Shown piece by piece: positions 4,774 through 53,327 of a stretch of DNA of 64,000 bases (positions are counted from its first letter, which is position 1; every line of letters begins with the position of its first letter). Position numbers and translations under genes: made by a program. The DNA is from Opitutia bacterium (lineage in GTDB: Bacteria > Verrucomicrobiota > Verrucomicrobiia > Opitutales > Opitutaceae): positions 1-64,000 of the forward strand of contig JACPIS010000042.1 of the NCBI GenBank assembly GCA_016187925.1. The letters are read 5' to 3'. The notes under the pieces are model-generated. The model saw only the letters and a program-made list of their open reading frames with translations. It was not told where the DNA came from and searched no databases.

Positions 4774-4827
4774 GGTAGGGCGAGTCGCCCCGACGAGCCG
4801 CGGCTCATCCGGAGGATTCGACCTACC
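4774..4827. repeat. Palindromic repeat, family B (GGTAGGGCGAG type)
   Basis: Two facing 26-bp units, GGTAGGGCGAGTCGCCCCGA... at 4774-4799 and its imperfect reverse complement at 4802-4827, form a hairpin in the 235-bp gap between the channel gene and the convergent cupin gene. The same unit recurs at 10344 and, as a triple composite, inside the lldD-type gene at 15675. The rest of the gap shows no gene. Confidence 0.8.
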
Positions 4828-10343: not shown

Positions 10344-10400
10344 GGTAGGGCGAGTCCTCCGGACGAGCCGAATTATGGAGGGCTCAGCTCCCGCTGAGCC
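10344..10400. repeat. Family B palindromic unit plus GGCTCAGC hairpin
   Basis: One family B unit (GGTAGGGCGAGTCCTCCGGA..., 10344-10369) is followed by a perfect 8-bp hairpin GGCTCAGC-TCCC-GCTGAGCC at 10381-10400. The second hairpin has the same shape as the GGCTCGGCTCCCGCCGAGCC part of the 165-bp repeats at 53397 and 54629. Confidence 0.75.
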
Positions 10401-12213: not shown

Positions 12214-12369
12214 GAATATTGCCGAATAGTGCTTCAGTGGGAGTGAAAGCAGTCACTCAGCTGGTGGCCCGTGGCGGTAGGAGATGCGATTGGGGTGGTG
12301 GCGGCAAGACCCGTCTTGACGGGTCGCGCATCGACAAGCCCAGGATTCCGCGCTTCGCTTACCTCGTCA

Positions 12370-12541
12370 TGATCCAACCCCACTCCGACATCGGCCGGCA
12401 GCGGCAGCGCGACATCTATATCGCCGGCGTCGGTGGGCAGCGTCCGTCGGTGCCGGTGGCGTCAGCGGAGCTTGAGCGCGCGGCGCAGGCGGCGATGGCC
12501 CCGGGGCCGTTCGCCTACCTCGCGGGCGGAGCCGGGCGCGC
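12370..12541 (+). pseudogene. 5' fragment of an lldD-type FMN-dependent oxidase
   Basis: The reading frame [20 protein letters not shown]... closely parallels the N-terminus of the intact oxidase ([20 protein letters not shown]..., from 15006) for about 57 codons, to the shared GGAGR, then breaks off. DNA identity is roughly 80-85% by eye, so it is a diverged relative, not a fresh copy. The fragment's 3' edge is also the end of the oppositely oriented gene 12515-13513, whose last codons are read from its antisense strand. Confidence 0.85.
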
Positions 12542-13513
12542 CGAGAGTAGGCGGAGGTAGAGGAACTTGGCTTTATCGGTCGGATGCTGCGCCGTGAGGG
12601 AGACAAGGCCCGCGCAGCTTCGTAGCGGCGGCCGCGTTTCCGTGACCGTTAACGTCATGTCCAGGGCCGGCCGACCGTTGAGCGACATTTTCATCGGAAA
12701 TTCGTGGACTCGCGTGGCCAGCCCCAGCGTGCCGTCAGGCAGCATGCCGACCGCATTCCAATCGTAGTTGAAGCCGACGTTCACGCCCCGGTTGCTTGCG
12801 ACTGACCACAGCGAGGGCTTTTGCAGCACCTGATCGAGCACATCGCGGCAGGCCGGGATTCCCGACGCCGCCTCGTAGAAGGCGCGCAGCGAGAAGATCA
12901 CGCTGAGCAAGAGATGCTCCTCCTCCGGTGAGAGCTGGAGCGGAGTTTCAGCCGGGCGAGCGCCTGAGGCCGCGGCGGCTTTCAATCGAGCGGCGATGGC
13001 GCGGGCCCATTCACTATACCGCATGAGCCCAGCTTCGAGTGACTCCGCACTGACTGTCGCGCGCCCATACCGAGTGGTGACACCAGTGGTGCTCTCCTCT
13101 CCTGCGGTGAAGGGCCCGATGAATTCCAGTGCGAGCATCGTCGGAGTGTGGTGGATGCGTCGTGCGTGCCCTGAGTTCGAGCGGAATATGTCATCAGGAA
13201 GCGGCTTGGGTTCACCCCTGGCTTTGTCCGGTTTGTCGGCGATGAACCGCACTAGCCATTGCTGGCGTCCGGCGGGCTGCGTTAGTTCGAGGAGGTAGCG
13301 CACTTCGTCACCCGGATGGGGTTCGCTGCGCGCGGCCAGCGTCACACCCTCGAGGGGGATGTTGTGTGCGGTGGCATAAGTGGCGAGGGCAGGCAGTGGT
13401 TGAGTCGAGAGTGCGGGATTTTCGGTGCGTGCCGTCAGGATGGCGTTCATGCCGGCGAGCAGGATTCCAATGCGGAGGAACACCGGGCAGGAGACGTGGA
13501 ATGGTGGTGGCAT
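12515..13513 (-). CDS. Hypothetical secreted protein, 332 aa
   Basis: No family recognised. A hydrophobic N-terminus (CPVFLRIGILLAGMNAIL) suggests a signal peptide. The body is alternating polar/hydrophobic with a helical central part (SLEAGLMRYSEWARAIAARL) and no membrane helix. It follows the serpin gene by 64 bp on the same strand, so co-expression is likely. The last nine codons (SARPAPPAR) are antisense to the lldD-like fragment at 12370-12541, implying that a rearrangement replaced the original C-terminus. A functional link to the serpin is possible but unproven. Confidence 0.65.
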   Translation of the reverse strand: MPPPFHVSCPVFLRIGILLAGMNAILTARTENPALSTQPLPALATYATAHNIPLEGVTLAARSEPHPGDEVRYLLELTQPAGRQQWLVRFIADKPDKARGEPKPLPDDIFRSNSGHARRIHHTPTMLALEFIGPFTAGEESTTGVTTRYGRATVSAESLEAGLMRYSEWARAIAARLKAAAASGARPAETPLQLSPEEEHLLLSVIFSLRAFYEAASGIPACRDVLDQVLQKPSLWSVASNRGVNVGFNYDWNAVGMLPDGTLGLATRVHEFPMKMSLNGRPALDMTLTVTETRPPLRSCAGLVSLTAQHPTDKAKFLYLRLLSARPAPPAR

Positions 13514-14861: not shown

Positions 14862-15005
14862 GAAGGGAAGACAGTTCAACAAGGAATTTCTTAGCGCGGC
14901 TGGCCCAAGCCTGCGTCGGAGGAACGGAGCCTGACGGACACCGGCGCGGAATCCAGCTCGCATTCACGAATCGACAATGTGGCTGCGGTCGGGAAACTGC
15001 TCGCC

Positions 15006-16379
15006 ATGAGCCAACCCCACTCCGACATCGGCCGGTCGCGGCAGCGCGAGATCTATGTTGCGGGTGTTGGAGGCAAGCGTCCGAAGGTGCCGGTGGCGTC
15101 AGCGGAGCTGGAGAAGGCGGCGCAGGCGGCGATGTCGCCGGAGGCGTTCGCCTACATCGCGGGCGGAGCCGGGCGCGAGTCGACGATGGCGAGCAACCGC
15201 GCGGCGCTCGACCGCTGGCAGATCGTCCCGCGCCGGTTGCGCGACAACGAGCAGCGTGACCTGTCGGTCGAGTTGTTCGGGCGCAGGTTGCCCACGCCGC
15301 TCCTGCTCGCGCCCATCGGCGTGGCGGAGATGGCGCACCGCGAGGCCGACCTCGCCGTCGCGAAGGCAGCGGCATCGTTCCGCGTGCCCTATATTTTCTC
15401 CAACCAGGCTTCGGTGCCGATGGAGCAGGCGGCGGCCGCGATGGGCGGCGCGCCGCGCTGGTTTCAGCTTTATTGGAGCAAGTCGAACGACGTCGTGGCG
15501 TCTTTCGTGCGCCGCGTCGAGGCCTGCGGGTGCGACGCCATCGTGCTGACCCTCGACACCACGATGCTCGGCTGGCGGCCGCGCGATCTCGATCTCGCTT
15601 ACCTGCCGTTTCTCCAAGGCAAAGGCATTGCGCAATACACGAGCGATCCGGTGTTCCTGCGCGAAGTGCGCGAAGGTAGGGCGAGTTCTCCGAACGAGCC
15701 GCCACGGACTGAGATTCGGGCAACGGCTCAGCCGGAGGCTTCGCCCTACCTTCCTGCCTCGGCTCGTTCGGAGAACTCGCCCTACCGGGAACCCAAGCCG
15801 CCGCTGAATCTCCAGACCATCGCCACGGCGCTGGCGCAGAAGGCGAATTTTCCCGGCGGTTTGCTGAAGAATTTGCTCTCGCCCGACCCGCGCGCGGCGG
15901 TGGCGCAGTTCGTGGCGACCTACTCGCGGCCGAACATCACTTGGGACGATCTGAAGTTCCTCCGTCAGCACACGAAGCTGCCCATCGTGCTCAAGGGCAT
16001 CCTGCACGCCGCCGACGCCAAGCTTGCGCTCGAGCACGGCGTCGATGGCCTGATCGTTTCGAACCACGGCGGCCGGCAGATCGACGGCGAGATCGGCTCG
16101 CTCGATGCGCTGCCCGGCGTAGTCGAGGCGGTGAACGGTCGGATACCCGTGCTCTTCGACAGCGGCGTGCGCGGCGGCGCGGATGTGTTCAAGGCGCTCG
16201 CGCTCGGCGCGACGGCGGTCTGTCTCGGCCGGCCCTACGTTTACGGTTTGGCGATTGCCGGCGAGACCGGTGTGTGCGAAGTCATCGCCAACGTGCTGGC
16301 CGAGTTCGACCTGACGCTCGGCCTGGCCGGCTGCACGAACGCGCGCGAGATCGGGCGCGACAGTGTGGTCCGCGGGTAG
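15006..16379 (+). CDS. FMN-dependent alpha-hydroxy acid oxidase/dehydrogenase (lldD type)
   Basis: A 457-aa TIM-barrel flavoenzyme oxidising L-2-hydroxy acids such as L-lactate or glycolate. Visible motifs: YIAGGAG near the N-terminus, [21 protein letters not shown], the catalytic SNHGGRQ (His354, Arg357), and the phosphate-binding [18 protein letters not shown]. Residues about 224-260 are not family sequence: they are translated from a 112-bp palindromic repeat composite inserted in frame. The insert lies in the variable 'loop 4' region, which family members tolerate, so activity may survive. The start ATG at 15006 matches the fragment copy at 12370. Whether it is an oxidase or a quinone-linked dehydrogenase is not decided by sequence. 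Confidence 0.9.
15675..15786. repeat. Family B palindromic composite inside the lldD-type gene
   Basis: Three 26-bp family B units: forward at 15675-15700, and reverse at 15725-15750 and 15761-15786. The outer two are perfect reverse complements over 26 bp. The block contributes residues such as [19 protein letters not shown] and SARSENSPY to the enzyme without a stop codon. Related units are intergenic at 4774 and 10344, indicating that the element moved into the gene rather than the reverse. Confidence 0.9.
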
Positions 16380-16450
16380 GACGCGTCCGGCGTAGGCCAT
16401 TCATTCGCTATGGGTCCGATACCCCGAAGCAGCTTCGGCTTGGTCGCGTT

Positions 16451-16527
16451 GTAGGAGCCTGCTTGCAGGCGACGGGGAACGCGCGCCGACGGATCGTGCG
16501 CTGAGTCGCCTGCAAGCAGGCTCCTAC
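16451..16527. repeat. Palindrome with 23-bp perfect arms (GTAGGAGCCTGCTTG)
   Basis: GTAGGAGCCTGCTTGCAGGC... at 16451-16473 is the exact reverse complement of 16505-16527. Each arm itself contains a smaller palindrome (GCCTGCTTGCAGGC). It is the first element in the 665-bp gene-free gap 16380-17044, which holds only repeats. Confidence 0.85.
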
Positions 16528-16605
16528 AAATATGAAAACGAGGGGCAAGTTGAGAGAGCGCTGGTTTGATCCAATGCCTCGGAACTTGCCCCGAGGATTT
16601 TCACT

Positions 16606-16940
16606 GTGGGAGGGGCTTTACGCCCCGACTCCCCACGATGGGGCGTAGGGCTCGACTTTGTGTCGAGCATTGGCCTCACACCAGGTAAGGCCCTGCTATG
16701 TGGCAGGCAGTTTGTCGGGGCATAAAGCCCCTCCCACACTCGGCTGCGGCGTAAGGCTCGACCTCGCGTCGAACCTTGGCCTCACGCAAGGTGAGGCCCT
16801 GCGACTGAACGGCAGAAATCCGCCGGCGATAAGCCGGCCCCCGAAACCCAGCGGCGGAGACGATCAGTCGAAGCCTCTTCTGTAGGATTCATCCGTTGAT
16901 GAATCCATTTAGTGGTCAGCCTCCTCCGGGCTGTGTGCCT
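16606..16940. repeat. Composite repeat, copy 1 (about 330 bp)
   Basis: It begins with a family A unit GTGGGAGGGGCTTTACGCCC at 16606, then a family F unit (GGGCTCGACTTTGTGTCGAG), a reversed family A unit ending near 16737, another family F unit, and a tail containing GCCGGCCCCCGAAACCCAG and GGATTCATCC. The same order recurs at 21036 with scattered differences, so the whole composite was copied as one block. No open frame of interest lies in it. Confidence 0.85.
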
Positions 16941-16988
16941 ATAAGCTGCAGCCGGCCCGGCGGTCCGGCCCTACCCGTTTACTGCGAC

Positions 16989-17040
16989 GTAGGGCTCGAC
17001 CTCGCGTCGAACCTTGGCCTCACGCAAGGTGAGGCCCTAC
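16989..17040. repeat. Family F palindrome (GTAGGGCTCGACCTCG)
   Basis: A 52-bp imperfect palindrome: GTAGGGCTCGACCTCGCGTC at the left, with a GGCCTCACGCAAGGTGAGGCC stem and CCCTAC at the right. It ends 4 bp before the stop codon of the LytTR regulator (minus strand), so it would appear in that mRNA's 3' end. Relatives lie within the composites at 16606 and 21036 and at 53275. Confidence 0.8.
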
Positions 17041-21035: not shown

Positions 21036-21400
21036 GTGGGAGGGGCTTTATGCCCCGACTCCCCACGATGCGGCGTAGGGCTCGACTTTGTGTCGAGTCT
21101 TGGCCTCACGCTAGGTAAGGCCCTACGATGCGGCAGGCAGTTTGTCGGGGCATAAAGCCCCTCCCACACTCGGCTGCGGCGTAGGGCTCGACCTCGCGTC
21201 GAGCCTTGGCCTCACGCTCTGCTGTCGAGCAGAGTGAGGCCCTACGACTGCCCCATTCGGCAGCCAAAACCGCCAATAAGCCGGCCCCCGAAACCCAGTG
21301 GCGGAGACGATCAGCCTGCGCCAAGGCTACGGCCGACAGGTCAGTCGTAGCCTGTTTTTTGCAGGATTCATCCATTGAGTGGTCAACTTTCTCCGGCCCG
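21036..21400. repeat. Composite repeat, copy 2
   Basis: Same order of elements as the block at 16606: family A unit (21036-21059), family F unit, reversed family A unit (21144-21167), second family F unit with an added CTCTGCTGTCGAGCAGAG hairpin, then the GCCGGCCCCCGAAACCCAG tail. The tail has a local insertion (near 21317-21345) relative to copy 1. It fills the 475-bp gene-free gap 20986-21460. Confidence 0.85.
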
Positions 21401-22120: not shown

Positions 22121-22215
22121 GGGGTGATTCAGAGGGCAGAGGTCAGATAGCAGAGGACGGAAGTCAGAGGCCAGAAGACGGAGGCCAGAGGACGGAGGAC
22201 GGCTTTTCGCAGCGT

Positions 22216-53147: not shown

Positions 53148-53274
53148 GGGTTATGCACGGAGGGAGGTTGGCGGCCCGCATCTTGATAAATGCCGAGGTG
53201 AAGCGGAGTGCAACAGTCGGGTGGCACCGGTTCGGCGCGAGCCGGGTTTCCGTTTCAATCCGTAGTCGCAATCC

Positions 53275-53327
53275 GTAGGGCTCGACCTTGAGTCGAGCCA
53301 CAGGCCGCACGCAAGATGCGGCCCTAC
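53275..53327. repeat. Family F palindrome
   Basis: GTAGGGCTCGACCTTGAGTC at the left and GCATGC-type GGCCGCACGCAAGATGCGGCC stem with CCCTAC at the right. It is the same family as 16989-17040. It lies in the gene-poor gap 53148-53834, which otherwise holds the 165-bp repeat and the IS110 relic. Confidence 0.75.

Follow-up and report, generated by a model that had tools for sequence, protein, structure and literature searches.

It is highly probable that a REPIN-type non-autonomous element, most likely moved by a REP-associated tyrosine transposase (RAYT), entered loop 4 of lmo, a putative lactate-monooxygenase-like gene, and that the same loop was occupied several times in the family. The gene lies in the window, that is, the whole stretch of 64,000 nucleotides of Opitutia bacterium DNA analysed here, and carries three GTAG-headed REP units in frame at 15675-15786, as found by pattern matches and by the inverted-repeat listing. 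The REPIN/RAYT system consists of paired inverted REP units together with a RAYT gene that has the same REPs as flanks.

Composition and folding of the block in lmo

Unit 1 (15675-15701, plus strand) matched the search pattern with 0 mismatches, folds into a GTAG head and an imperfect hairpin, and is of subtype GTTCTCCGAAC. A spacer (15702-15723) separates its pattern match from that of unit 2 (15724-15750, minus strand; match at 15725-15749), which is inverted and of subtype GCCTCCGGC, the subtype of the first unit in the orthologue of genome G141. Unit 3 (15760-15786, minus strand; match at 15761-15785) is likewise inverted and shares subtype GTTCTCCGAAC with unit 1, with which it forms the outer arms, a perfect inverted repeat of 27 bp. 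Codon-shuffling lmo 1000 times gave inverted repeats of at most 22 bp, with a mean of 12.1. An earlier note on this DNA had described a palindromic composite read in frame within a flavoenzyme, with outer arms perfectly complementary over 26 bp; the composite proved to be real, with three units, an open frame and about 37 residues, and its arms are complementary over the 27 bp given above.

Folded as a single strand, the block was far more stable than shuffled versions of itself (z -9.9 for DNA, -9.5 for RNA). Each of the three units folded singly gave an unpaired GTAG head and a stem of 3+4 bp with a 2-nt internal loop, and single units folded no better than shuffles. The two inverted outer units forming one long hairpin are as in a REPIN, the third unit inside being atypical, and the GTAG head on a short imperfect palindrome is as in GTAG REPs. 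The units are not confined to extragenic positions, being in frame in lmo and in seven further genes; this does not exclude them from the class, because the available text of PMC3733652 treats units within genes as belonging to one and the same kind of element. We classify the block as a REPIN-type composite built from GTAG REP units. Outside lmo, the window contains a REP pair at 4774-4827, detected as an inverted repeat and similar, when compared by eye, to the 53-bp REPIN of uvrA and the adenine deaminase gene, and a single unit of subtype GTCCTCCGGAC at 10344-10371 (plus strand), found by the inverted-repeat listing and a pattern match.

The host gene

The gene lmo (15006-16379, plus strand) was assigned from its Pfam domain, a fold match and dN/dS. 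The translation analysed starts at 15009, one codon past the ATG at 15006, with a GTG at 14979 as an alternative start. No stop interrupts the frame through the block, which would encode residues 223-260 of the 456-residue translation. The product matched FMN_dh (PF01070, 407.5 bits, 5.9e-122). Among solved sequences, the top scores came from L-lactate oxidase entries containing the domain twice, followed by lactate 2-monooxygenase, and a fold search with the predicted model ranked lactate monooxygenase first (best PDB match 6dvi, TM 0.78/0.90). Both the domain and the fold are thus those of lactate 2-monooxygenase and the FMN alpha-hydroxyacid oxidases. The conserved Tyr/Asp/Arg/Lys/His-Arg set was present as Y155, D183, R190, K329, H353 and R356, which were invariant across 16 alignment rows and which we take to be the catalytic residues. 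On these sequence features, the product is a putative lactate-monooxygenase-like FMN-dependent alpha-hydroxyacid oxidoreductase.

Outside the loop, dN/dS was about 0.14-0.22 against seven relatives, and lmo is under purifying selection. The view that the insert occupies a variable loop of a flavoenzyme that may still work held up, and the enzyme probably does still work despite the insert. In an AlphaFold2 model built with the 16-row alignment A1 (mean pLDDT 77.8), pLDDT was below 50 at residues 226-264, covering the insert, and also beyond it at 184-197 and 355-358, the latter being active-site residues. A 178-bp copy of the start of lmo, 87% identical and with a TAG within the match, lies 2.6 kb upstream in the window (12363-12560, plus strand), and a comparable N-terminal fragment precedes lmo in genome G002 (L080).

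REP units across the genome and the candidate RAYT

The 4.0-Mb genome contains 66 REP units at ≤2 mismatches, compared with 0 in the control, so the family is present in many dispersed copies; these and the other REP counts given here are low because the counting pattern covers one length class and skips units with a longer loop. The 48 stretches fetched around REP matches and the window together contained 74 units, grouped into 60 clusters.

Eight Y1_Tnp matches were found in the genome. The RAYT candidate at L109:1534-2004 (156 residues) scored 91 bits with NF047646, above the NCBIfam cut-off of 80 and under the Y1_Tnp cut-off of Pfam. The gene is bracketed by two copies of the lmo outer-arm subtype in inverted orientation and, with this score and these flanks, provides the cognate RAYT expected of a REPIN. 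Only this one of the eight loci was flanked so closely by units of this REP family; at the L035 locus, two REP units lie about 1 kb from the match. The L109 product may therefore have moved the element found in lmo.

In-frame units in other genes

The family had been considered intergenic apart from lmo, which is wrong genome-wide. Open frames were collected across 28 units chosen from the 74, and a Pfam run on 30 of the 45 frames yielded domains in eight, of which seven were counted: alaS, mfd, uvrA, tatD, nuoG, an SpoU methylase gene and an adenine deaminase gene. The eighth, an epimerase (L145), was left uncounted; its unit lies before the domain and possibly ahead of the real start codon. 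Seven is a lower bound, because genes without a Pfam domain are missed. A codon-usage score for calling genes near REPs separated the strands too poorly and was dropped in favour of Pfam. Among the eight forward GTAG units in these genes and lmo, the codon offset was 1 in five, 0 in three and 2 in none, so that no unit lies in the frame that gives TAG, as open frames require.

An identical 53-bp REPIN is present in uvrA and the adenine deaminase gene of the window's genome, which speaks for joint movement of the two units, and this REPIN is also identical in genomes of two genera. Comparison with relatives covered lmo, uvrA, mfd and tatD. Among the 13 genomes of the genus, the uvrA loop after KLPLK contained REP units in the window's genome, G005, G006 and G002, and the mfd loop in the window's genome, G006, G012 and G003 (first unit only, where the contig ends). 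The uvrA and mfd loops of the remaining genus genomes had no REP units, G008 having an unlike, longer loop in uvrA, and a second clear REP was not found in tatD of the 12 other genus genomes, where the loop is variable. In uvrA of the window's genome (L136:2236-5499, minus strand), a second in-frame single unit lies at residues about 355-364 (VGRGVPDEP), with a similar stretch in G006.

Occupied and empty loops among lmo orthologues

A search of 252 genomes of the family, including the window's, gave 28 matches at E 1e-60 or better; after the divergent G242 and G246 were set aside, 26 close orthologues remained. The loop contained a REP pair in ten (the window's genome, G001, G002, G003, G006, G012, G141, G156, G163 and G165) and was empty of one in 16. 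All ten insert-bearing genes read through without a stop. The earlier note had expected the insert to be absent from the orthologues of close relatives, which does not agree with these ten occupied loops. It had also named the presence of the same residues in orthologues of distant relatives as grounds for rejection, and taken literally such residues do occur, GRASSPNEP...ARSENSPY being present in G003 and G012 (75-77% identical). Because the same REP subtype sits there, we read this as identity of the element and not as an old feature of the enzyme.

The left boundary of the insert falls 6, 7, 12, 4 or 2.7 codons after SDPVF, depending on the lineage, giving five offsets; G163 and G165 have both boundaries in common although they are not sisters in the gene tree. 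That tree, built without the loop, comprised 28 rows (24 of the 26 orthologues, G009 and G153 being left out, and four distant sequences). It required at least seven gains or losses, four of them forced by well-supported branches, and a single clade of insert-bearers was rejected (p-AU 1.8e-59). Within the genus alone, where lmo states are known for 9 of the 13 genomes, two changes suffice on a tree of three other genes. Regarding transfer of the loop between genera, left flanks were mostly kin-like, and the right 20 codons matched other genera too in several rows.

The orthologue of G153 (L054/L090) is split by a frameshift outside the loop. Directly after the lmo REPIN of G003 (L058), a REP end appears to have been tandemly expanded (NSPYPG-NSPYPE-NSPHPE). 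L229 (G012, contig 12, 150281-150354) contains another perfect pair, of the same subtype as the outer arms in the window. It lies in a stretch that is open on one frame of each strand, and one frame again reads GRASSPNEP...ARSENSPY.

Insert type and resident REPs

By exact-pattern count, genomes with an occupied loop had 6-102 REPs, including the units of lmo itself, compared with 0-22 in those with an empty one (Mann-Whitney p 2.6e-5, ignoring kinship). Kinship-corrected pairs on supported branches numbered four, too few for significance, of which about three agreed, none opposed and one showed no difference. G154 and G158 have 18 and 22 REPs, yet their loops are empty. Subtypes were tallied in G006, G141, G156, G165 and the window's genome. 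The first lmo unit of G006 is of the dominant subtype there (51 of 74 units among the matches listed), the lmo subtype of G141 accounts for 14 of its 68 units, and the outer subtype of the window's lmo, one of several in its genome, for 8 of 66. The lmo insert of G156 belongs to a different GTAG family with 57 sites in that genome (≤2 mismatches), which also has nine units of the window-type family. G165 has 54 sites of this second, G156-type family but the first family in lmo. The insert matches a type abundant in its own host most clearly in G006 and G156.

Mechanism and alternative explanations

Considering these results, we propose that a REPIN-type composite entered the variable loop 4 of the lactate-monooxygenase-like gene. 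Being a small mobile element that is not autonomous, it was most likely mobilized by a RAYT. In each unit, two of the three forward frames would escape the TAG of the GTAG head, and Pro, Ser, Ala, Arg and Glu would be abundant in the peptide read from the units, so that an insert of suitable length could become a disordered loop that the folded enzyme survives. Coding sites that can accommodate such inserts are probably few, which may explain why the loop was occupied several times. In the genus to which the window belongs, some of the occupancies may instead represent one old insertion whose arms were later overwritten.

Comparison of arms with spacers bears on this last point. Between G003 and G012, the arms of the lmo insert differed at 0 of 54 positions, compared with 6 of 22 in the spacer (p 3.4e-4) and 78 of 1182 in the rest of the gene (p 0.044). 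The spacers are alike at 16 of the 22 positions, and those of three other perfect-arm pairs in the two genomes differ from that of lmo, making a single insertion before the G003/G012 split likely. Between G001 and G006, at dS 0.55, the arms differed at 0 of 55 positions compared with 196 of 1182 in the rest of the gene (p 9e-5), and in uvrA the window's genome and G005 agreed in the first 56 bases of the loop at a dS of 0.91 (the first 32 with G006). These values would suit a variant, possible but less likely than not, in which one old insertion per gene, at least in the genus, serves as a slot whose arms are overwritten or held to the resident REPs at the DNA level while spacer and flanks drift. 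The boundary common to the uvrA loops of the window's genome, G005, G006 and G002 and the different subtypes in the mfd loops of the window's genome, G006 and G003/G012 point the same way. However, independent insertion of a conserved element would also yield identical arms, as the 53-bp REPIN identical in two genera illustrates. Arms changed less than the rest of the gene at p <0.05 in six of eight lmo pairs (overlapping pairs, uncorrected p), but G163/G165 (8/55, p 0.59) and G001/G165 (9/55, p 0.15) showed no such conservation. The uvrA loops of the window's genome and G002 have only 11 bases in common from their start (p 0.14), boundaries of the lmo insert differ across genera, and G156 has another family there. 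Overwriting and the repeated insertion of a conserved element would both account for this pattern; across genera we lean towards repeated insertion, and within the genus either may apply. That lmo loop 4 and the uvrA and mfd loops are all long-lived coding slots in a living REP population, with arms held or rewritten to the resident type, seems rather unlikely; if true, peptide segments of several proteins would simultaneously undergo concerted evolution driven by a selfish repeat population.

Two further explanations dispense with a mobile element in a working gene. The extra residues might be a selected functional loop of the enzyme, as their stop-free presence in 10 of 26 orthologues could suggest; given that these DNA units are also found in unrelated genes and at other places of the genome, that 16 of 26 orthologues lack the insert and that G156 has an unrelated repeat family at the site, we consider this very improbable. 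Equally improbable explanations are that lmo is a pseudogene in decay or that the block arose in assembly. The paralogous N-terminal fragment 2.6 kb upstream indicates that gene decay occurs in the neighbourhood, and the G153 orthologue is frameshifted, but the dN/dS values outside the loop and the comparable inserts in the orthologues of nine other genomes, as well as in alaS, uvrA and mfd, argue against these explanations.

Relation to known systems

Intragenic GTAG REPs were reported in 2013, most of them in Opitutus terrae, according to the available text of PMC3733652, and the phenomenon is thus already known. Opitutus terrae is placed in Opitutaceae, so that it is not new to the family either. 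As far as that text describes, GTAG-tagged units and dimers are translated inside genes there as they would be here, and uvrA genes are hit doubly there as in the window's genome. The same portion notes different REPs at about the same site in recB of two Xanthomonas species; the word 'lactate' is absent from its main text. In comparison with that account, the present analysis traced recurrence in one loop among 26 orthologues, using a tree and the REP counts of the hosts. The likeness to the REPIN/RAYT system as given in the accessible part of PMC3116915 lies in the paired inverted units and in a RAYT flanked by the same REPs, whereas the lmo copy lies within a reading frame and has a third unit.

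The parallel drawn earlier with Rickettsia palindromic elements stands in that palindromic repeats are in frame in unrelated genes of one genome in both cases (PMC3733652 and PMC10969869, from the parts available). The repeats of R. conorii carry a CGTC tag, and a dedicated transposase is apparently lacking for CGTC repeats according to the available text of PMC3733652; the units here are GTAG-tagged, with a RAYT in the genome. The terminal CGTC tag by which that text characterizes RPE-4 and RPE-6 was not found in the units of lmo, whose head is GTAG. Neither 'intragenic' nor 'Opitut' was found in the accessible portion of PMC12306157, and no recurrent REP occupancy of one coding loop was recognized in the open-licence literature, mostly at the level of titles and the starts of abstracts, beyond the remark on Xanthomonas recB. 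As far as searched, what is new is mainly the recurrence of REPs in a single coding loop. The case offers orthologues with and without the insert as well as a candidate transposase, so that insertion of mobile palindromes into coding genes becomes traceable species by species. A candidate transposase can be named here, whereas none is apparent for the Rickettsia-type (CGTC) repeats in the text of PMC3733652 at hand.

Further palindromic repeats in the window

Other short palindromic repeat families are present in the window, some likewise with GTAG near one end. One group lies at 16644-16669, 16750-16775, 16988-17013, 21074-21205 and 53274-53299, another at 16605, 21035, 24381 and 56190, and a third at 22215, 22271 and 57206; another repeat spans about 16449-16531.
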